Positions 564 to 9,565 of a DNA stretch of 64,000 bases are shown here, piece by piece. Source of the DNA: Paracoccus sp. (in: a-proteobacteria). Lineage in GTDB: Bacteria; Pseudomonadota; Alphaproteobacteria; Rhodobacterales; Rhodobacteraceae. The stretch lies in assembly GCF_030538755.1 (NCBI RefSeq), contig NZ_JAUNTJ010000001.1, forward strand, positions 169,845 through 233,844, in the 5' to 3' direction. Within the stretch, counting starts at the first letter, position 1; each line of letters starts with the position of its first letter. The notes under the pieces are model-generated. The model was not told where the DNA came from. It did no database searches and saw only the letters and a list, made by a program, of their open reading frames with translations. The position numbers and the translations under genes were made by a program.

Positions 564-962
564 TCACCCCAGCCGCAGCAGATAGGCCAGCAGATCGGCG
601 CGCAGCAAAAGCCCCGCCAACTGCCCGTCCCGCATCACCGGAAAGCTGCGATGCGGATGGTCCAGAAACGCCTGCGCCGCGGTGACGGGATCGGTCGCGG
701 CCTCCAGCGTGACGGGGGTGCGGCTCATCTGATCGGCGACGGTGCCGGACCATTGCCGGTAATAGCTGGCGTTCAGCGCCGGGCGGAAACAGTCTTTCTG
801 CGTCAGCACACCGATCAGCGCGCCCGCGTCATCCACCACCGGCGCGGCGGCAAAGCCCTGATCCAGCATCAGCGCGGCGGCGTCGCGGATCGGCATATCG
901 GCGCTCAGGCGCGGAAAATCGCGGCGCATGATCGTGCCGATGCTGTCGCTGGTCATGGTCAT
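564..962 (-). CDS. CBS-domain protein, last gene of the nqr operon
   Basis: A 132-residue protein made of two CBS motifs (about residues 8-60 and 72-130), a pair that usually forms one adenosine-nucleotide-sensing module. No other domain is attached. The ATG at 962 is chosen because it overlaps the nqrM stop (ATGA) and an AAAGGA Shine-Dalgarno sequence lies 9 nt upstream; a longer frame to 1019 has no such support. Position at the end of the NQR operon and the overlap suggest co-translation, perhaps as an energy-sensing partner, but that role is inference. The ligand is unknown. Confidence 0.8.
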   Translation of the reverse strand: MTMTSDSIGTIMRRDFPRLSADMPIRDAAALMLDQGFAAAPVVDDAGALIGVLTQKDCFRPALNASYYRQWSGTVADQMSRTPVTLEAATDPVTAAQAFLDHPHRSFPVMRDGQLAGLLLRADLLAYLLRLG

Positions 963-1126
963 GGGGGGCTGTCCTTTGTGCGGTTGGGGCAGTCGGTGCA
1001 GCGCAGGCCGGGCACGCAATCCATGCTGCCGCAGGATGTGCTGACCGGGCGGCGGCCAAAGACCAGCCCCAGTGCCAGCCCTCCGGCGGCAAGGGCGATG
1101 ACAAGGATGGCGAACAGGAACTCCAT
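959..1126 (-). CDS. nqrM: NqrM, Na+-NQR maturation protein
   Basis: A 55-residue protein with one N-terminal membrane helix (MEFLFAILVIALAAGGLALG) followed by a short basic turn and four cysteines (TSCGSMDC, LRCTDC). This is the layout of NqrM (DUF539), which is needed to install the iron centre between NqrD and NqrE. It follows apbE by a few bases and overlaps the CBS gene start. Start chosen at the ATG directly before the membrane helix; the frame extends upstream to 1177 but that part overlaps apbE. Its presence argues that the operon encodes an NQR-type rather than Rnf-type complex. Confidence 0.85.
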   Translation of the reverse strand: MEFLFAILVIALAAGGLALGLVFGRRPVSTSCGSMDCVPGLRCTDCPNRTKDSPP

Positions 1127-1130
1127 CGCG

Positions 1131-2099
1131 TCAGGCCAGATGCGCGGCCAGATCGCCGGTTTCCAGACGGCGGCCATCGGCGGTCAGCATCAGCGTGGTC
1201 AGCCCGTGCTGCCGGGCCATGTCCAGCGCCCGCGCCTCGCCCGCCGCGAACAGCGCGGTGGCCCAGCCATCGGCAAAGCGCGCCGAGCGGGCGATGACGC
1301 TGACCTGCGCCAGACCGCCCTGCGCCGGGGTGCCGCTGGCGGGGTCGATGATATGGCTGACCCGCCGCCCGCCCAGATCATAGCCGTTCACACCGCTGCC
1401 CGAAGTCGCCACCGCCATCCCGCCGCGCAGCGCCAGAACCTCGGCGGCTGCGCCGGGGCTGCCCTCGATCGCAACCTGCCATGCCCGGCCAAGGGGGTGC
1501 TGCCCGCCTGCGGCCAGCTCTCCGCCAAGGTCGATCAGCCAATGCGCGCCGCGCCCGGCCATCAGCGCGGCCAGACGGTCCAGCGCGTGGCCCTTGGCGA
1601 TGCCGCACAGATCGGCGGTGGCGCCGGGGGTGGCCTTGGTCACGGTTTGCCCCGTCAGCGTCAGATGCCGCCAGTCGGGCTGCGGGTCGCCCTGCCGGAT
1701 CGGGCCAAAGCCCCAGCGCGCGACCAGCGGCCCGACCGTCGGATCAAAGGCCCCGCCGCTGTCATGCGCCAGCCGCAGCGCAGCGGCCAGAACCTGCGCG
1801 GTGTCGCCGGGCAGATCGCGCGGCCCGGCCCCGGCCATGTTCAGCGCGGTGATGTCGCTGTCGGCCCGCCATGGCGACATCTGCCGGTCGATCCCGGCCA
1901 GCACATCATCCACCGCCGCGTGCAGCCCGGCCAGCGGCGCGGCATCGGGCAGGGTGATGGCCCAACCGCTGCCAAAAGCGCGCCCGGTCAGGCGCTGCGT
2001 CGCCGGGGCACCGGCCAGCAGCGCGGGCGCGGCCAGCATGACGCCCGCCCCGGCGATCAGCGCGCGGCGGCTTGGGCGCAGGGATGCGGTCTGTGTCAT
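1131..2099 (-). CDS. apbE: FAD:protein FMN transferase ApbE
   Basis: Covalently attaches FMN from FAD to threonine residues in proteins such as NqrC. The 322-residue protein begins with a twin-arginine-like signal (SRRALIAGAG followed by a hydrophobic stretch to about residue 32), consistent with export to the periplasm where the NqrC flavin domain lies. Family motifs visible are SPWRADSDI, GGAFDPTVGPLV, DLCGIAKGHALD, WLIDLGGE and the C-terminal SHIIDPASG. It lies four bases after nqrF in the same operon. A dedicated ApbE in an nqr operon is common. Its certain local substrate is NqrC, because NqrB here lacks its flavinylation motif. Confidence 0.93.
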   Translation of the reverse strand: MTQTASLRPSRRALIAGAGVMLAAPALLAGAPATQRLTGRAFGSGWAITLPDAAPLAGLHAAVDDVLAGIDRQMSPWRADSDITALNMAGAGPRDLPGDTAQVLAAALRLAHDSGGAFDPTVGPLVARWGFGPIRQGDPQPDWRHLTLTGQTVTKATPGATADLCGIAKGHALDRLAALMAGRGAHWLIDLGGELAAGGQHPLGRAWQVAIEGSPGAAAEVLALRGGMAVATSGSGVNGYDLGGRRVSHIIDPASGTPAQGGLAQVSVIARSARFADGWATALFAAGEARALDMARQHGLTTLMLTADGRRLETGDLAAHLA

Positions 2100-2103
2100 G
2101 GTC

Positions 2104-3324
2104 TCACGCTCCGAAATCGTCGTTAAAGATCGAGTGCGGCTCGACCCCCAGCCGGGTGAGGGTCGCGAGCACGGCGGAAATCATCACCGGCGGCCCGCAG
2201 AGGTAGTATTCGCAATCCTCGGGTGCCGGATGGCTGGCCAGCGCGCGGCGCACGGTTTCGTGGATAAAGCCGGTCGGCCCGTCCCATTTGTCGCCCGGTG
2301 CCGGTTCGGTCAGCGCCGCCACCCAGCCAAAGTTCGGATGCGCGGCGGCCAGTGCCTGAAACTCGTCCACATAGAACAGATCGGCGGCGGTGCGCGCGCC
2401 ATAGAAATAGCGGATCTTGCGCGCTGTGCCTTGCCCAAGCTGTTCATGGATCATCGCGCGCAGCGGGGCCATGCCGACGCCGCCGCCGATAAAGATCATC
2501 TCGCGGTCGGTCGGCTGGACGTGGAATTCCCCGAACGGGCCGGAAATCCCGGCCTTGTCGCCGGGTTTCAGCGCGAACAGCCAGGACGATACGATGCCGG
2601 GCGGGATCACGCCCTCTTGCCCGGCGGGGGGCACGGCCAGACGGATGTTGAACACGGCGCGGCCCTGATCGGCGGGGCGGTTGGCGATGGAATAGGCGCG
2701 CGTCACCGGCAGGGCGGATTGGCCGCGCAGCCGGTCCCAGCCGGCGGCGGCCCATGCCTCGCGGTGTTCGGGGGCGACCTCGATCCGGGCGAAATCCAGA
2801 TCATAGGGCGGCGCGGTCAGTTGCATAAAGCCGCCAGCGCGGAAATCGAACGGGTAGTCTGGCGGCAGTTCCAGCACCAGTTCGCGGATCAGCGGGGCCA
2901 GCATCCGGTTCGACAGCACCCGGCATTCGGCGCTGCCTGCCGACAGCACACCGCCGCTGACCTGCACATCCACCGGCCCGCGCAGGGTCAGCTGGCAGGC
3001 CAGCCGCACATGATCGCGCCGTTCCGCGCCCGACAGGATGCCGCGCTCGGTGGCCAGCGGGTCGCCCGCGCCCTCGCCCGTGGCGGTAACGCGGCACAGC
3101 CCGCAGGTGCCCGCCCCGCCGCAGCCCGCCGGGATGGCGATGCCCGCGCCATGCAGCACCGGCAACAGCCGGTCGCCGCGCGCGGCGCTGATCTGGTGGC
3201 TGTCGTTCACGGTCACGGTGACGGCACCCTGCGGCACCAGCCGCCTGCGCGCCGCCAGCAGACCCAGCGTCAGCGCCAGCAGCAGCGCGATGATGACCAG
3301 CGTGCCAAGGACGATCTCGGTCAT
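2104..3324 (-). CDS. nqrF: NqrF, NADH-oxidising FAD/2Fe-2S subunit of Na+-NQR
   Basis: Oxidises NADH and feeds electrons into the complex. The 406-residue protein has an N-terminal membrane helix (residues 4-25), a plant-type 2Fe-2S ferredoxin domain with C68, C74, C77 and C110, and a ferredoxin-NADP-reductase-like module with the FAD motif TRAYSIANRP, the nucleotide loop FIGGGVGMAPLRAM and the C-terminal EYYLCGPPVM and DDFGA. All expected cofactor ligands are present, and length matches the family. The ATG overlaps the nqrE stop (ATGA). It is the electron entry subunit for the operon. Confidence 0.95.
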   Translation of the reverse strand: MTEIVLGTLVIIALLLALTLGLLAARRRLVPQGAVTVTVNDSHQISAARGDRLLPVLHGAGIAIPAGCGGAGTCGLCRVTATGEGAGDPLATERGILSGAERRDHVRLACQLTLRGPVDVQVSGGVLSAGSAECRVLSNRMLAPLIRELVLELPPDYPFDFRAGGFMQLTAPPYDLDFARIEVAPEHREAWAAAGWDRLRGQSALPVTRAYSIANRPADQGRAVFNIRLAVPPAGQEGVIPPGIVSSWLFALKPGDKAGISGPFGEFHVQPTDREMIFIGGGVGMAPLRAMIHEQLGQGTARKIRYFYGARTAADLFYVDEFQALAAAHPNFGWVAALTEPAPGDKWDGPTGFIHETVRRALASHPAPEDCEYYLCGPPVMISAVLATLTRLGVEPHSIFNDDFGA

Positions 3325-3932
3325 GGCATCACCACTTGCGCAAAGGACGAAAAGCCCAGCGACATCAGCCCGGTGATGAAAAAGGCGATGCCCAGCCCGC
3401 GCAGACCGCCGGGCAGGTCGGCATAGGCCAGCCGCGCCCGGATCGCCGCCAGCATGACGACCGCCAGCGCAAAGCCCGCGCCGCTGCCCAGCCCGAATAC
3501 CGCGCTTTCGGTCAGGCTATAGCGGCGTTCCACCATGAACAGGCTGCCCGCCAGAATCGCGCATTGCACCGCCAGCAGCGGCAAAAACACCCCGAACGAG
3601 GCATGGATGGCCGGGAACCAGCGGTCCAGCACCATTTCCAGCAATTGCACGCAGGCGGCGATGGTGCCGATAAAGGCGATCAGCGCCAGATAGGACAGGT
3701 CCAGATCGGGCATCCCGGCCCAAGCCCACGCGCCGGGGGCCAGCACGGCGGCATGGATCAGGTGGTTCAGCGGCACCGTGACGCCCAGCACGAACATCAC
3801 CGCCAGCCCCAGCCCGACCGCCGCTTCGACCCGCCGCGACAGCGCCAGAAAGGTGCAAAGCCCCAGAAACAGCGTCAGCGGCATGTTATCGACCAGCGCC
3901 GCGCGCAGGAACAGGGCGAACAGATCGCTCAT
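3321..3932 (-). CDS. nqrE: NqrE, membrane subunit of Na+-NQR
   Basis: A polytopic 203-residue membrane protein that, with NqrD, holds the intramembrane iron centre. C26 (in GLCTFLALS) and C124 (in AVQCAILAGS) are the conserved ligands and are present, as is the family segment SLFMVERRYSLTES. About six hydrophobic segments are visible. Start and stop overlap nqrD and nqrF by four bases, indicating tight translational coupling. Confidence 0.94.
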   Translation of the reverse strand: MSDLFALFLRAALVDNMPLTLFLGLCTFLALSRRVEAAVGLGLAVMFVLGVTVPLNHLIHAAVLAPGAWAWAGMPDLDLSYLALIAFIGTIAACVQLLEMVLDRWFPAIHASFGVFLPLLAVQCAILAGSLFMVERRYSLTESAVFGLGSGAGFALAVVMLAAIRARLAYADLPGGLRGLGIAFFITGLMSLGFSSFAQVVMP

Positions 3933-4588
3933 CTGCGCACCTCGCCGGGGTGCGGGGCGATGGCCTCGGGCGGCTCGATCTGTTCGGGGCGCAGGCTGCG
4001 GATGGCCCAGACCAGCCCGCCCAGCAGGAAAAAGCCGCTGGGGGCCAGCAGCATCAGGTTCAGCGGCGTGAACCAGCCACCGGCTTCGGTCGTGACCAGC
4101 ACCTGCCAGCCCAGCAGATGCCCGGTGCCGAACAGTTCGCGCAACGCGCCGATGGTTATCAGCACCAGCGAATAGCCCAACCCGCTGCCAAGCGCATCGA
4201 CGGCGGAGGGCAGGGGCGGGTTGTGCAGCGCGAAGCCCTCGGTCCGGCCAAGAACAAGGCAGTTGGTGGCGATCAGGCTGACAAAGACCGACAGTTGCTG
4301 GCTGACATCATACAGCCATGCCTGCAACATCTGGTCGATCACGATCACCAGTGATGCAACGATGACGATCTGCACAATCAGCCGGATCGAGCCGGGCACA
4401 TGCCGCCGGATCGTGCTGATGATGACCGCCGCCAGCACCAGCACCACCGTCAGCGAGGCCGACATGGTTAGCGCGGTGGCAACCGAGGTCGTGACCGCCA
4501 GCGCCGAACAGATGCCCAGAATTTGCAGGGTGATCGGGTTTCGGGCGATCAGCGGTTCCGTCAGGATGTGCAGCAGCGGGCGGGCCAT
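3929..4588 (-). CDS. nqrD: NqrD, membrane subunit of Na+-NQR
   Basis: A 219-residue polytopic membrane protein paralogous to NqrE. The conserved iron-site cysteines C27 (LGICSALAVTT) and C110 (ATNCLVLGRTEGFA) are present, followed by GLGYSLVLITIGALRELFG, typical of the family. It lies three bases after nqrC and overlaps nqrE by an ATGA. The C-terminal cytoplasmic tail (RPEQIEPPEAIAP) is somewhat longer than in the Vibrio protein. Together with the intact NqrE cysteines it indicates a normal iron centre in this otherwise unusual complex. Confidence 0.94.
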   Translation of the reverse strand: MARPLLHILTEPLIARNPITLQILGICSALAVTTSVATALTMSASLTVVLVLAAVIISTIRRHVPGSIRLIVQIVIVASLVIVIDQMLQAWLYDVSQQLSVFVSLIATNCLVLGRTEGFALHNPPLPSAVDALGSGLGYSLVLITIGALRELFGTGHLLGWQVLVTTEAGGWFTPLNLMLLAPSGFFLLGGLVWAIRSLRPEQIEPPEAIAPHPGEVRR

Positions 4589-4591
4589 GGC

Positions 4592-5401
4592 CTAGAATTC
4601 CCCGCGGCGGATGGCGTCCAGCAGCGGGCCGTATCCGTTTGGCCCCAGCCAAAAGCGCATCATGTTGGTGATCGCGTTCGAGGTGCGGGTGGCGCCGGTG
4701 ATGCCGTCCACCTCGTATTCGGTGGCGGCGCGGCCCCGCGCCACGGCAAAGCGCACGCTGCCGCGATCATCCAGCGCCGGCAGGCCCGCGAACTGCGCCT
4801 GCCACGCCGGTTCGGTGATCCGCGCGCCAAGGCCGGGGGTTTCCGACTGGCTGGTGATGGTCATGCCGGCGATGTTGCGGGCGTCGCCGCGCAGGGCGAC
4901 CATGGCCTGAATCACCCCGTCATAGCCCGCGCCCGCGACCGGCAGGATCACCAGATCGACCGGCCCGCCCGCCCCCTGACGGGCGATGAAGATCTGTGCG
5001 TAATCCGGGCGGCTGCCCAGACCGGCCAGATCCTGCGCCGGGGTCAGCGCGGTATGGCTGGCGGGGTTGGTCAGCGTATCGGGCAGTGCTTCGGCGGTGA
5101 TGTCGGGGGCGGCGCGGCCGGTGGTCAGATCGACGACGACGGTGGACAGCGCCGCATCGCCCGACTGCGCCAGCAGGTCCGACATGCCGGGGATGGCGGC
5201 GATCAGCGATTCCAGCCGCGCCTGTTGTTCGGCGGCGCGGTTGGCCGTCTGGATCGGGCGCAGCGTCACCGTGGCCGCCGTCACCAGCAGCGCGCAGACG
5301 GCGGCGGTGACAAAGGCGATGGCGACGGTCTTGCCCCGGCTGTCATTGGGCAGCGCCAGCATCCGCCGCCACGCGCTGATCGGGTTCGGATCAAAGGCCA
5401 A
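4592..5401 (-). CDS. nqrC: NqrC, covalent-FMN subunit of Na+-NQR
   Basis: A 269-residue protein with one N-terminal membrane helix (about residues 26-48) and a periplasmic FMN-binding domain. The flavinylation motif DGITGATRTSNAI is present near the C-terminus, and the threonine ending TGAT (about residue 238) is the expected FMN attachment site for ApbE. A TTG at 5401 is taken as start because GGAGG lies seven bases upstream. An in-frame ATG at 5446 lies deep inside nqrB, and another at 5362 would lose part of the amphipathic N-terminus. The start overlaps the nqrB stop. Confidence 0.92.
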   Translation of the reverse strand: MAFDPNPISAWRRMLALPNDSRGKTVAIAFVTAAVCALLVTAATVTLRPIQTANRAAEQQARLESLIAAIPGMSDLLAQSGDAALSTVVVDLTTGRAAPDITAEALPDTLTNPASHTALTPAQDLAGLGSRPDYAQIFIARQGAGGPVDLVILPVAGAGYDGVIQAMVALRGDARNIAGMTITSQSETPGLGARITEPAWQAQFAGLPALDDRGSVRFAVARGRAATEYEVDGITGATRTSNAITNMMRFWLGPNGYGPLLDAIRRGEF

Positions 5402-6179
5402 GGCGTTTCCTCCGGGCGATGCGCCAGAATGCCAGCGCGGTTTCATCCAGCAGCGGTGCCGCCAGCGAGGTCAGCAGCGCCGCCGAAACGGCGATCTGCA
5501 CCGGGTTGCCGCCGGTCCAATGCGCGGCAAAGCCCGCCATCAGCAGGGCAAACAGCCCGCCCGTCAGCCAGCGGCCCAGCCTGGTGGCGGCGCTGGCCAC
5601 CGGGTCGGCCACCAGCATGACCAGCACCACCAGCGCGGCGGTGGCAAAGCTGCCCGCCAGCGGCCAGCCCGCCAGTGCCGCCAGCCCGGCCCCGATCAGC
5701 GCGCCGCCGATCAGCCGGGCGCTGATGACGCCAAAGCCCATGCCGATCAGCGCCGCCGGGATCGCGGCCCAGCCGATCTGCGGGTCGGGCGTGGCCCAAG
5801 GCTCGGCCGGAAAGCCAAAGCTGACAAAGGCCAGCGTCACCGTGGCCGGGTTCAGGATGTTGCGGCCCCAGCCGCCAAAGATCAGCTCCGCCACCACCAC
5901 GCCAAAGCTAACCGACAGCAGCAGCGCGACCGGCCCGATCTGCGGCGGTGCCAGCAGCGCGATGGCAATGGCCGACAGTGCCCCAGCGAACGAAGGCGGC
6001 TGCGCCCGCGCCAGCATGAAGGCCAGATGCCACAGCCCCGCCAGCACCAGCACAAAGACCAGACGCGACAGCACCGCAGGCCCCGCGGCCAGCAGCCATG
6101 TGATGACGATGGGCAGCATCGCCGCGATCAGGATCAGCGCCACGGTTTCGCGCGACCAGATGCCTTTGGTCACGGTCAT
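5391..6179 (-). CDS. nqrB: NqrB-like subunit, short form lacking the flavinylation segment
   Basis: The 262-residue membrane protein aligns with the core of NqrB: FGVVVAELIFGGWGRNILNP (about residues 92-111) matches the conserved loop before the flavin site, and LVADPVASAATRLGRW and SLAAPLLDE match the C-terminal half. From memory Vibrio NqrB is about 415 residues. Here the long N-terminal extension is absent, and after FGFPAE (121-126) the segment that normally carries the SGAT threonine for covalent FMN is missing. No SGAT or TGAT occurs anywhere in the protein. Start and stop overlap neighbours as in a functional operon and the frame is intact, so this looks like a stable variant rather than a pseudogene. 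Confidence 0.85.
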   Translation of the reverse strand: MTVTKGIWSRETVALILIAAMLPIVITWLLAAGPAVLSRLVFVLVLAGLWHLAFMLARAQPPSFAGALSAIAIALLAPPQIGPVALLLSVSFGVVVAELIFGGWGRNILNPATVTLAFVSFGFPAEPWATPDPQIGWAAIPAALIGMGFGVISARLIGGALIGAGLAALAGWPLAGSFATAALVVLVMLVADPVASAATRLGRWLTGGLFALLMAGFAAHWTGGNPVQIAVSAALLTSLAAPLLDETALAFWRIARRKRLGL

Positions 6180-7435
6180 GTCGCGCCCCCCTCGGCTGCG
6201 ATGCGGTCCAGCATTCCGCGCAGCACCGAGGCCAGCGGCGGGTCGGCCTGCGTGACGTAATCGGCCAGCGCAAGGTCTGTTTCCAGCAGCGACAGCACGC
6301 CAAAGCGTTGCGCCGCGTCGTCATCACCCGCCGACAGGGCGCGCAGGAACGGGATGGCGGGCAGGCTGGGGGCCAGCGCCTGTTCCAGCGCGGCGGTGGG
6401 GATCAGCGGCGCGGGGCGCGACATGCGGGCCAGCGCGGCGCGGAACCAGTGCGGCGAGGCTGCCGGGGCCGGGCGCGGCATCACCGTCACCTGACGGTCG
6501 CGCAGAAACAGAAACCGCCCCTCGACCCCGTCCAGCGCGGAACCTGACAGGATCATTGCCGGGCCGGGCTGCATCACCGGCTGCGCCAGCCCGTGCAGGT
6601 CGGCCCCCGGCTGACAGCGCAGCACCCGCTGCCCCGATGCGGCTGGCCCGCCCACCGCCACCATGCGGGTTTCGGGCAGATAGCCACTGGCCAGCAGGGC
6701 ACCGAGGACGGCGACCTCTTGGGCGTCTACCTCCCACACCGGGGCGTCGGGGCGGGCGGGGAATTGCGCGTGGATATGCGTTCCGGCCAGCCCCTGCGGA
6801 TGAAGCGGCCCGGCGGGCAGCACGCGCAGGCGCGGCGTATCGGCCAGCGGCGGGCCGGGCGGCTGGACCAGCAGCAGTGGGCCATCGGTCAGGCCGGCCA
6901 GCGCGGTCAGGCCACGGGCGAAATCGTCCTGGGCATCGCGCAGCGCCATGGCCGGGGGCAGCGCGCCGGGGCGGGTATCATGCGCCATCACGCAGATCGC
7001 CGCCGGGCGGGTGCCGGGCGCGGGAAAGCCGCCAAAGGGCCGCTGCCGCAAGGCCGTCCACAGCCCCGACGCCAGCATCAGCGCCGCCACACCAGCGCCG
7101 CCGTTCACGCGGGCGGTATCAAAGCGGTGCCGGTCGGCCCCCTGATCGCGAAAGAACAGCACATAGCGCAGCACTCGCCCCGGCCCGGTGTCGATCCGCG
7201 CCACCCGCCCGCCCATCGGCGCGGTCACGCACAGGTCGGGGTGGCGGCGGTCGCGCAGGACCGGCTGACCCTGCGCCACCATCTCGCCCTGTTCCACCAG
7301 CGGATCGACGCGGAAATCGGGGGGGAAGCCGGGGCCAAGCGCGGCTTCTTCGGTCAGGGCCGGTTCCGGCTCTGCCAAGGTTGTGGCCGGGCCGCCAAAG
7401 GGCAGGGCCAGACCGCTGCGGAAGGCTGTCGTCAC
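6176..7435 (-). CDS. nqrA: NqrA subunit of Na+-NQR
   Basis: A soluble cytoplasmic subunit of about 419 residues, first gene of the operon. The N-terminus (FRSGLALPFGG) matches the conserved glycine-rich start of the family. Further matches are SGLWTALRQRPFGGFPAP, the HPQGLAGTHIH motif, and the C-terminal FGVLSLLETDLALADYV. The GTG at 7435 is taken as start because AAGGGA lies seven bases upstream; the frame continues to a TTG at 7498, but that would add residues not seen in the family. It faces the multiheme cytochrome gene across a 98-bp gap that must hold both promoters. No strong sigma-70 site was clear on this strand. Confidence 0.92.
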   Translation of the reverse strand: MTTAFRSGLALPFGGPATTLAEPEPALTEEAALGPGFPPDFRVDPLVEQGEMVAQGQPVLRDRRHPDLCVTAPMGGRVARIDTGPGRVLRYVLFFRDQGADRHRFDTARVNGGAGVAALMLASGLWTALRQRPFGGFPAPGTRPAAICVMAHDTRPGALPPAMALRDAQDDFARGLTALAGLTDGPLLLVQPPGPPLADTPRLRVLPAGPLHPQGLAGTHIHAQFPARPDAPVWEVDAQEVAVLGALLASGYLPETRMVAVGGPAASGQRVLRCQPGADLHGLAQPVMQPGPAMILSGSALDGVEGRFLFLRDRQVTVMPRPAPAASPHWFRAALARMSRPAPLIPTAALEQALAPSLPAIPFLRALSAGDDDAAQRFGVLSLLETDLALADYVTQADPPLASVLRGMLDRIAAEGGAT

Positions 7436-7533
7436 GGGCGATCCCTTGGGGTCAGGGTTGTTCAGAGTGGCGTTTTCCGTTACCCTGAAAGTTAGCAAGT
7501 TCGGTCCGGCGCATCAACCTTTGGGGGCGACAC

Positions 7534-8748
7534 GTGAAGACCTTTCCAGCGAAGAAACTGATTGGCGTGACGATTCTGGCGGGGGCGCTGTCTTGGCTGC
7601 CTGTCGCGGCCATGGCGCAAGACGCCGCCGACACGGCCCCCGCGCCCGATGCGGCGGCGGATGCCGAAGCGGCCCCGGCAGTTGATGGGGGCGCGGCCCC
7701 GGCCTACACGCTGCCCAGCGTCGCGCCGCTGAACCCCGAACAGATCAAGATCGGCAATGCTGCCGAAATCGCCGCCTGGGCGCGGTCGGGGCACGCGGAT
7801 GCCGCCTCGCGGTCGTTTACCAATTGGAACGAGGCGGGCACCATCCCCCCCGCCTGCGCCGCCTGCCATTCGGGCGCGGGCTTTCGCGCCTATCACGGGC
7901 TGGACGGCAGCCCCTCTGGCGAGGTGCCGCCGACCCCCGTGGGCGGCGTGATCGACTGCGACACCTGCCACAACCCCGGCATCGGCGACATCCGCGAGGT
8001 GCGCCTGCCGACCGGCGATATGCACCCCGTCCGCGGCGGCGAGGCGTCTTGCGTGGCCTGCCATCAGGGCCGCGCCTCGGGGTCTGCCATTACCGAGGCG
8101 GTGGCCGAAAAGGCCGAGGATCTGCCCAATGCCGACCTGTCCTTTATCAACCCGCATTACGGGACTGCGGCGGCGATGGCGCTGGGCGGCTATGCCGGGC
8201 TGGGCTATGAATATGACGGTAAGTCCTATGAGGGGCGCTTTACCCACGCCCCGCCGGTGCAGACCTGCGCCGCCTGCCACGATCCGCACAGTCTTGAGGT
8301 GGTGCAGGACAGTTGCCAGACCTGCCACGGCGCGGCGGATGCCATGACGATCCGCCTGTCGCGCGCCAGCCATGACGGCAGCGGCGACACCGCCAAGGGC
8401 ATCGGCCATGACATCGCCGCGAATGCCTTTACGCTGAAGCAGGTGATCTTTGATTACGCGCGCGAGGTGGCGGGCACGCCGATGATCTATGACGCCGGGC
8501 GGCACCCCTATTTCTTTGCCGATGCCAATGACGATGGCGTGATCGACGAAGCCGAGGGGGCGCGGGTGGCCTATAACGCCTGGACTCCGCGTTTGCTGAA
8601 GGCGGCGTATAACTGGAAATTCGTCACCTCGGACAAGGGGGCGCATGTGCATAACCCGCATTACGCCCTGCAATTGCTGTATGATTCGACCGAGGATCTG
8701 AGCCGTGCCATGGGTCGTGATTTCGCCGCGATGGGCTGGGCGCGCTAG
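7534..8748 (+). CDS. Periplasmic five-heme c-type cytochrome with an EF-hand loop
   Basis: A 404-residue exported protein: residues 1-29 form a Sec signal ending AMAQ, followed by an Ala/Asp/Pro-rich linker to about residue 58. Five CxxCH heme sites are visible at residues 108, 142, 173, 245 and 261, with extra histidines (87, 164, 208, 238, 280, 292) that could be distal ligands. Residues 330-341 read D-A-N-D-D-G-V-I-D-E-A-E, a complete EF-hand calcium loop. It starts with GTG behind a GGGGGCGA ribosome site and is divergent from nqrA. The exact family is not recognised; it resembles multiheme electron-transfer or respiratory cytochromes. Heme attachment would depend on the ccm genes at 55-58 kb. 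A link to NQR is inferred from position only. Confidence 0.85.
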   Translation: MKTFPAKKLIGVTILAGALSWLPVAAMAQDAADTAPAPDAAADAEAAPAVDGGAAPAYTLPSVAPLNPEQIKIGNAAEIAAWARSGHADAASRSFTNWNEAGTIPPACAACHSGAGFRAYHGLDGSPSGEVPPTPVGGVIDCDTCHNPGIGDIREVRLPTGDMHPVRGGEASCVACHQGRASGSAITEAVAEKAEDLPNADLSFINPHYGTAAAMALGGYAGLGYEYDGKSYEGRFTHAPPVQTCAACHDPHSLEVVQDSCQTCHGAADAMTIRLSRASHDGSGDTAKGIGHDIAANAFTLKQVIFDYAREVAGTPMIYDAGRHPYFFADANDDGVIDEAEGARVAYNAWTPRLLKAAYNWKFVTSDKGAHVHNPHYALQLLYDSTEDLSRAMGRDFAAMGWAR

Positions 8749-8965: not shown

Positions 8966-9565
8966 ATGCGCGATATTCCGGCGATGATTCTGGCGGGCGG
9001 CAAATCCAGCCGCATGGGCGGGGGCGACAAGGGGCTGCGGCTGTTGGCGGGGCGGCCGATGCTGGCCCATGTCGCGGCCCGGCTGCGCGGGCAATGCGGG
9101 CCGCTGGCGCTGAATGCGAACGGCGATCCGGCGCGCTTTGCCGGGCTGGGCTTGCCGGTGCTGCCCGATCCGGTGGCGGATCAGCCCGGCCCGCTGGCCG
9201 GAGTGCTGGCCGCGATGGATTGGGCCGCCGGGCTGGGGGCGGTGCGGGTGCTGACGGCGGCGGGCGATACGCCGTTTCTGCCGGGCGATCTGGTGCAGCG
9301 GCTGGCGGATGACGGCGGGCTTGCACTGGCGGCCAGCCGCGACTGCGGGCAGCTGCGGGTGCATCCGGTCTTGGGCCTGTGGCCGGTGGCGCTGCGCGAT
9401 GATCTGCGCGCCGCCATTGGGGCAGGGCAGCGGCGGGTGCAGCTCTGGGCCGAATCGCAGGGCGCGCGGCTGGTGATCTGGGACGTGGCACCGGGGCAGG
9501 GCGACCCGTTTTTCAACGTCAACCGCGCCGAGGATCTGGAACTGGCTGAAAGGCGGTTAAATTAG
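8966..9565 (+). CDS. mobA: Molybdenum cofactor guanylyltransferase MobA
   Basis: Attaches GMP to molybdopterin to give the bis-MGD cofactor. The 199-residue protein has the N-terminal nucleotide-binding signature ILAGGKSSRMGGGDKGL, then NANGDPARF, LPDPVADQPGPLAGVLAAM, TAAGDTPFLP and the C-terminal FFNVNRAEDLELAE, all standard for the family and at normal length. A strong AAAAGGGGG site precedes the ATG. The 217-bp gap upstream contains only a weak GC hairpin (about 8760-8779), so mobA probably has its own promoter. Confidence 0.94.
   Translation: MRDIPAMILAGGKSSRMGGGDKGLRLLAGRPMLAHVAARLRGQCGPLALNANGDPARFAGLGLPVLPDPVADQPGPLAGVLAAMDWAAGLGAVRVLTAAGDTPFLPGDLVQRLADDGGLALAASRDCGQLRVHPVLGLWPVALRDDLRAAIGAGQRRVQLWAESQGARLVIWDVAPGQGDPFFNVNRAEDLELAERRLN

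Follow-up and report, generated by a model that had tools for sequence, protein, structure and literature searches.

Where do the electrons of a complex of the Na+-NQR type go if its NqrB subunit has no segment for the covalent FMN? The question is raised by an operon in the window analysed here, which is the whole 64,000-nucleotide stretch of DNA, taken from an alphaproteobacterial assembly of 3.0 Mb that is 86.8% complete. A sequence-only reading of the window had pointed to a 262-residue NqrB that displays the FGGWGRNILNP loop and a C-terminal ADPV segment and has no [ST]GAT motif, and the open reading frame (ORF) at 5391-6179 on the minus strand encodes just such a protein. The window closely resembles a Paracoccus MAG, with 98% identity in NqrB.

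The operon lies on the minus strand in the order nqrA, short nqrB, nqrC, nqrD, nqrE, nqrF, apbE, an nqrM-like gene, and a gene encoding a CBS-domain protein. All six homologous subunits are present as an nqrABCDEF operon; NqrD, NqrE, and NqrF score above the NCBIfam equivalog cut-offs, and NqrA, NqrB, and NqrC match below theirs. Annotation calls clusters of this kind ordinary Na+-NQR and names the short NqrB RnfD. A gene encoding complex I 49-kDa subunit is also present in the genome.

Losses in NqrB

The Pfam family PF03116 matches the NqrB of the window with an E-value of 3.8e-16, but in profile columns 16-141 of 296 only. When 36 short NqrBs were aligned with 17 canonical ones, profile against profile (Prob 100, E 5e-48, 260 columns), a gap of 44 residues was found after residue 131 of the short protein, at about nt 5786/5787. 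The 36 rows are the window and 35 others; L002, L005, and L007 were left out as near copies, and L045, L048, L056, and L057 as over-long, truncated, or broken. The gap corresponds to residues ~225-272 of Vibrio NqrB and includes Thr236, the Thr of [ST]GAT that carries FMN. This residue is therefore absent, and it is so in 36/36 aligned short NqrBs, which bears out the missing FMN segment noticed from the sequence alone. Seen from the other side, each canonical NqrB among the matches listed gave two separate hits to the short profile, some 50 residues apart, and one-piece short types were seen in at least five genomes of one family among the phylum matches listed (one of these, G994, with a stop).

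A few simple ways of explaining the gap away could be rejected. Strings of the [ST]GAT type, which might provide an alternative flavinylation site, occur only in L007 and L051, at unrelated positions, and the NqrB of the window has none. No second full-length nqrB was found; the genome has one PF03116 gene only, a result that is not absolute in an 86.8% complete assembly. A sequencing deletion at about 5.8 kb is ruled out since each of the 36 aligned proteins is short and has the same gap.

The protein has also lost the known quinone site. It begins at about Vibrio residue 44, and the N-terminal helices (~1-43), which make up the binding site for quinone and inhibitors (PMC9325719; PMC10643135; PMC12174285), are missing. 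The loop between TM1 and TM2 is 40 residues shorter (Vibrio 73-122 region), and nine residues at Vibrio ~322-330 and four scattered ones are gone as well. Position 157 of the quinone site is Glu in 17/17 canonical and 0/36 short NqrBs, position 159 is Phe in 17/17 and 1/36, and N156 has disappeared too.

The riboflavin ligands have fared differently. In the window's clade (21 rows) they are almost all kept, with N200 in 21/21, N203 in 16/21, A205 in 21/21, and D346 in 20/21. Several are mostly lost in the 15 rows here called the outer lineages, which are not a single clade in the tree (N200 2/15, N203 4/15). The F338/F342 gate is lost in the window's clade and shows the opposite pattern to the riboflavin ligands in the outer lineages, while the equivalent of D397, a residue implicated in Na+ uptake, is kept in all 36 short proteins.

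The kept ligands allow for a complex that is still an NADH:quinone oxidoreductase, only shortened: the FMN of NqrC would enter the vacated pocket of NqrB and reduce riboflavin, the quinone site would be rearranged, and the cytochrome discussed below would be an extra branch. An NqrC-type FMN approaching the non-covalent flavin site of an FMN-less NqrB-like domain has indeed been modelled for Nqr/Rnf-like complexes (PMC11334425). However, such a route would have to do without the known site (the N-terminal helices, E157, F159, N156, and the NqrA segment described below), the ligands it depends on are mostly lost outside the window's clade, and the link to the cytochrome is left unexplained. We regard it as rather unlikely.

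The Matching Deletion in NqrA

The nqrA ORF is found at 6176-7498 on the minus strand, with a start that, judged by eye, probably lies near 7435. Short-type and canonical NqrA can be aligned over their full length (E 6e-135), and the sole long deletion in the short type is one of 22 residues, at ~nt 6428 in the window; the other gaps are one to four residues long. Alignment via the PDB places the 22 residues at Vibrio NqrA ~344-366. In the structure, residues 330-379 of NqrA are intertwined with residues 34-53 of NqrB (PMC9325719), so NqrA and NqrB have lost parts that touch each other. The paired losses would suit excision of the quinone module better than decay at random.

Distribution and Stability of the Variant

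Matches to the short NqrB were obtained in 76 of the 295 genomes of the window's family, and 36 of these carry the short type as assigned from the extent of the match and the fetched loci. The other 40 show partial matches with 25-35% identity in frames mostly of at least 400 residues, and were taken as canonical. In two genomes, G099 and G125, an operon with a short NqrB coexists with a canonical one, and both canonical operons were fetched. Among 385 genomes sampled from the class, the window-like type is found in two, the window's own and G294. A third genome, G409 from another family of the class, carries a more divergent short type; this NqrB is matched in one piece by the short profile and in two by the canonical one. 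In its locus (L115) nqrC, nqrD, nqrE, nqrF, apbE, nqrM, and the CBS gene follow the short nqrB, and a tetraheme cytochrome gene is found upstream, past an alanine dehydrogenase gene. No nqrA was found in this 18-kb stretch, and in G286 the fetched locus (L068) contained no NQR ORF. Among named organisms the short type was seen in Paracoccus, Celeribacter, Shinella, a Rhizobiales bacterium, Nitratireductor, and Pseudooceanicola, with four on plasmids. On plasmid pShin-01 of Shinella sp. HZN7 (L069) the cluster is situated among genes of the glycine betaine transport, ectoine catabolism, and aromatic-ring-hydroxylating dioxygenase types.

In a tree of NqrDEF (54 rows), 41 short-type and 13 canonical rows are split by a branch with an SH-aLRT value of 100 and a combined length of 0.78. 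The tree was made by a quick method and came with warnings that the letter composition of several rows was uneven and that one row, L063, was long. With the occurrence in many genera, this branch, and the loss of the quinone site as well as the FMN segment, the proposal that the NQR is a stable variant whose terminal electron path is altered is well supported. As an interpretation of the locus it was only partly sufficient: the altered path stands, while the loss of the quinone site, the loss in NqrA, and the cytochrome as a conserved partner had not been part of it.

That the frame is not decaying had been argued from its overlap with both neighbours. A start codon of nqrB overlapping the nqrA stop by 4 nt is available in 37 of 38 readable loci (L061 differs), which speaks against decay. 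The overlap on the nqrC side is smaller than the ORF list suggests, as the true start of nqrC (4592-5446, minus strand) is, by eye, probably downstream of 5446. Visibly decayed short-type clusters with interrupted frames do exist (L057 in G013 and L084 in G994), and they are what one might cite in favour of a degenerating operon or an assembly artefact. Against this stand the same deletion in 36/36 rows, the conserved overlaps and ligands, and the branch with SH-aLRT 100, and we give degeneration or artefact practically no credence.

The Path from NADH to NqrC

At the level of sequence, the outward path is conserved. It comprises the 2Fe-2S cluster and the FAD and NAD sites of NqrF, the 2Fe-2S site shared by NqrD and NqrE, the ligands of the covalent FMN in NqrC, and the maturases ApbE and NqrM-like protein. 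The return path, in turn, is cut at three points, namely the FMN segment of NqrB, its N-terminal quinone-site helices along with E157/F159, and a portion of the stretch of NqrA by which these helices are embraced.

The cysteine ligands C27 and C110 of NqrD (3929-4588, minus strand) are conserved in 40 short-type rows (position 110 is C in all but one, which has X). C26 and C124 of NqrE (3321-3932, minus strand) are conserved in 39, as are C68, C74, C77, and C110 of NqrF (2104-3324, minus strand), a protein with ferredoxin-like 2Fe-2S, FAD, and NADH domains. The acidic residue D131 of NqrD, taken as Vibrio D133, is kept in 38 rows, the other two being gaps, and E99 of NqrE, taken as Vibrio E95, in 39. 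The counts for these three subunits omit L048, L056, and L057. NqrC has the flavinylation motif DGITGAT (T253 of the ORF). Of 40 aligned short-type NqrCs, 39 carry Thr at the flavinylated position, and the exception, L042, has Ser there. The earlier statement that NqrC, NqrD, and NqrE keep their ligands was thus correct and can be extended to NqrF.

Downstream of nqrF are genes for the putative maturases. apbE (1131-2099, minus strand) encodes an FAD:protein FMN transferase. The nqrM-like gene (959-1126, minus strand), located between apbE and the CBS gene, encodes 55 amino acids, with four Cys and a single hydrophobic stretch. An ORF of this kind is present in 35/42 short-type loci, three of the seven misses being at contig edges, and also on two named plasmids; homologues are labelled 'hypothetical' in two plasmid annotations. 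A Pfam search with single NqrM-like sequences gave no match. However, a profile built from 37 short-type small ORFs, with no canonical ones included, matched a four-Cys ORF in three of four canonical loci (L064-L066, not L067) with E-values of 5.5e-12 to 7.4e-14 in a search space of 787 small ORFs. The small four-Cys ORFs beside canonical nqr operons are, given their position, probably NqrM. NqrM has been reported to be required for the intramembrane 2Fe-2S cluster (PMC12174285). The CBS-domain gene (564-962, minus strand) is the last in the conserved operon, and its likely ATG overlaps the stop of the nqrM-like gene by 4 nt.

A Pentaheme Cytochrome and Its Two Partners

Divergent to nqrA is a gene on the plus strand (7534-8748) that encodes a cytochrome of the c type. 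The protein has five CxxCH motifs, five further invariant His, and, judged by eye, an export signal. In 52 aligned cytochromes all five CxxCH His are kept and exactly five other His are invariant, so that the protein would have five bis-His hemes and serve as an electron carrier. One of the cytochrome alignments (A3) took 28 of the 36 intact cytochromes. A sequence search of the PDB gave only marginal matches to di-haem peroxidases, the best with E 0.043. Beyond the cytochrome gene lies mobA (molybdenum cofactor guanylyltransferase, 8966-9565, plus strand), which among the mapped loci is seen only in the Paracoccus MAG loci L002 and L003.

When the short NqrB was followed into other genomes, which include Shinella and Nitratireductor besides the 36 of the family, the pentaheme cytochrome was found to adjoin nqrA in 36/42 fetched short-type loci. 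It is divergent in 35 of these, and the 36th is the broken L057. Of the six loci with no adjoining pentaheme gene, L048 and L056 stop at contig ends and L007 has no readable nqrA. Its place is taken by a divergent EB_dh-type cytochrome in L052 and by a tetraheme one, likewise divergent, in L054, and in L050 no multiheme ORF was found in the 7.4 kb upstream of nqrA. At the genome level the cytochrome is present in 33/36 short-type genomes (G012 by a weak match only) vs. 14/259 others (Fisher 3.6e-29); the genomes are related, so that Fisher values overstate their independence. Among 308 genomes in the class sample it is found only in the window's own and in G294.

The cytochrome also occurs in 15 loci with no NQR. 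They come from 14 genomes and from G047, where the cytochrome is present in a second copy and both kinds of locus are found together. At 11 of the 15 (L095, L098-L106, and L109) a ferric-reductase-like NAD(P)H oxidoreductase gene is divergent to that of the cytochrome. The ferric-reductase, FAD, and NAD domains (PF01794, PF08022, and PF00175) were found in 9/9 scanned, and the other two were assigned by homology. The 42 NQR loci gave no such gene, the only matches being weak ones to NqrF, and the remaining four NQR-less loci display no recognised membrane partner. Two unrelated NAD(P)H-driven transmembrane modules thus alternate beside one cytochrome. Oxidoreductases of the ferric-reductase/NOX type work outward, and this exchange of modules is the strongest argument for electrons flowing outward, from NAD(P)H to the cytochrome. 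No paper was found on the pair of ferric-reductase-like oxidoreductase and pentaheme cytochrome. On the Defluviimonas plasmid NZ_CP156080.1 (L113) the cytochrome gene has two-component systems and a PepSY/DUF2271/ApbE cluster in its vicinity, and the latter might be a third module.

The flow might also be inward, with the periplasmic cytochrome collecting electrons and an ion gradient driving the reduction of NAD+. RNF-type chains can reverse (PMC12174285), a decaheme cytochrome of Desulfovibrio has been proposed to feed Rnf (PMC4841214), and an Na+/H+ exchanger often adjoins the cluster. Even so, the alternative partner of the cytochrome in 11/15 loci belongs to an outward-working class, and inward flow is considered unlikely.

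A link to nitrous-oxide respiration was tested with a negative result, NosZ being associated neither with the short NqrB (11/36 vs. 66/259, p 0.55) nor with the cytochrome (15/47 vs. 62/248, p 0.37). In the window's genome, contig C7 encodes two more FMN_bind frames of ~800 amino acids, probably of the NosR/NirI type, and a NosZ fragment.

A Proposed Electron Route

The complex is probably an NADH:periplasmic-cytochrome oxidoreductase, a half-circuit NQR, rather than an NADH:quinone oxidoreductase. Electrons would pass from NADH via NqrF, the NqrDE pair, and NqrC to a cytochrome c. The reduced FMN of NqrC would hand them to a periplasmic multiheme cytochrome c, which in most lineages would be the pentaheme protein encoded divergently next to nqrA, while NqrB may serve as a membrane scaffold and possibly as an ion path. 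A purely outward path needs no riboflavin ligands, and their almost complete retention in the window's clade therefore counts against the proposal. So do L050, which has a short NqrB and no multiheme ORF found, and the 4/15 cytochrome-only loci that are partnerless. That two genes lie side by side is no proof that electrons pass between their products, nor of the direction. A search for a terminal acceptor gave none; NosZ was tested and showed no association. If the half-circuit is real, about one in eight of the sampled family genomes (36/295) is predicted to possess an unrecognised outlet for electrons from NADH to the periplasm.

Sodium and Regulation

An Na+/H+ exchanger gene is situated beside the cytochrome or the CBS end in 13/42 NQR loci (L035, L039-L041, L043, L044, L051, L053, L056, L057, and L060-L062), or 14 if the other contig of G159 (L110) is counted. 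Twelve are directly adjacent or overlap by open frame, and the one in L057 is 433 nt away. The 15 NQR-less cytochrome loci have none (Fisher 0.012, related genomes). One member was checked with Pfam (PF00999) and the rest were identified by homology; the background estimate assumes six exchangers per genome. The neighbouring exchanger hints that this form of NQR may be coupled to Na+, whereas the sequence-only reading had suggested that Na+ pumping was perhaps lost. The kept equivalents of D397, NqrD D133, and NqrE E95, with an exchanger in a third of the clusters, would if anything point toward Na+ pumping, while the loss of the F338/F342 gate of NqrB in the window's clade has the opposite sign.

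The literature is divided as to whether Na+ passes through NqrB/RnfD or through the NqrDE/RnfAE pair (PMC12174285). Among the ion pumps of bacteria NQR is a major one. The short form has lost the FMN, the quinone site, and, in the window's clade, the proposed gate of NqrB, yet keeps NqrDE and NqrC. Whether this form moves Na+ would help to separate the two models. A tentative extension of the outward route is a quinone-independent redox Na+ pump, in which NqrDE exports electrons to the periplasmic cytochrome and carries Na+ out in a near-electroneutral process. NqrB would then be dispensable for the redox chemistry, and Na+ would be carried in NqrDE and not in NqrB.

Upstream of nqrA, a TTGA-N6-TCAA palindrome is found in 14/40 loci, compared to 0.22 in shuffled sequences (maximum 2) and about 1.1 expected from the whole-locus rate. 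We take it to be a form of FNR/CRP-family box. It is also found in 6/11 of the ferric-reductase-type loci, a count with no shuffle control. Three of the 14 loci belong to the window's clade, and the window itself has no box; a dyad search of those window-clade promoters that have no TTGA-N6-TCAA box gave nothing above shuffles. These boxes and the CBS-domain gene within the operon might suggest a regulatory or protective role, for instance that periplasmic redox proteins are held reduced at low oxygen, with no respiratory function. Such a role is compatible with the half-circuit and differs from it only in purpose. Given the scarcity of boxes in the window's clade and their absence from the window, it is judged very unlikely.

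Comparison with Known Systems

The literature search revealed no paper shown to describe an NQR with a short NqrB, with thin coverage of subscription journals; in the accessible text of a paper on NQR evolution (PMC4014512) the words 'truncated' and 'deletion' do not occur. The complex thus seems to be a variant for which we found no published description, of an otherwise known kind of NQR. It shares with the Na+-NQR of Vibrio cholerae six homologous subunits in the same order, the ligands of NqrF, NqrD, NqrE, and NqrC, ApbE, and an NqrM-like maturase. It differs in that NqrB has neither FMN-Thr236, the N-terminal quinone helices, nor E157/F159, that NqrA is 22 amino acids shorter, and that a divergent multiheme cytochrome and a CBS gene have been added.

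The two-subunit Nqr/Rnf-like systems also combine an NqrB-like domain that has no flavinylation site with an NqrC-like flavinylated protein, and they have been suggested to transfer electrons in one direction only, from NAD(P)H to acceptors outside the cytosol (PMC8238504; PMC11334425). In these systems, which are described primarily from Actinobacteria and the candidate phyla radiation, PF03116 is fused to the NAD-binding domain PF00175 and electrons exit via the NqrB side. In the short-NqrB complex NqrB and NqrF are separate proteins, the six subunits are kept with NqrB trimmed, and the outward side would be NqrF-DE-C, the opposite half.

Multiheme c-type cytochromes are likewise found with RNF, as MmcA in Methanosarcina acetivorans and DhcA in Desulfovibrio (PMC12174285; PMC4841214), but RNF contains RnfB and RnfC where the operon of the window has NqrF and NqrA. 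Covalent FMN is listed for the RnfDs compared in a review table (PMC12174285). The ferric-reductase/NOX-type oxidoreductases, finally, are encoded divergently to the same cytochrome family in 11/15 NQR-less loci. They are, however, unrelated single-chain membrane flavoproteins, with no NQR subunits and no apbE found beside them.
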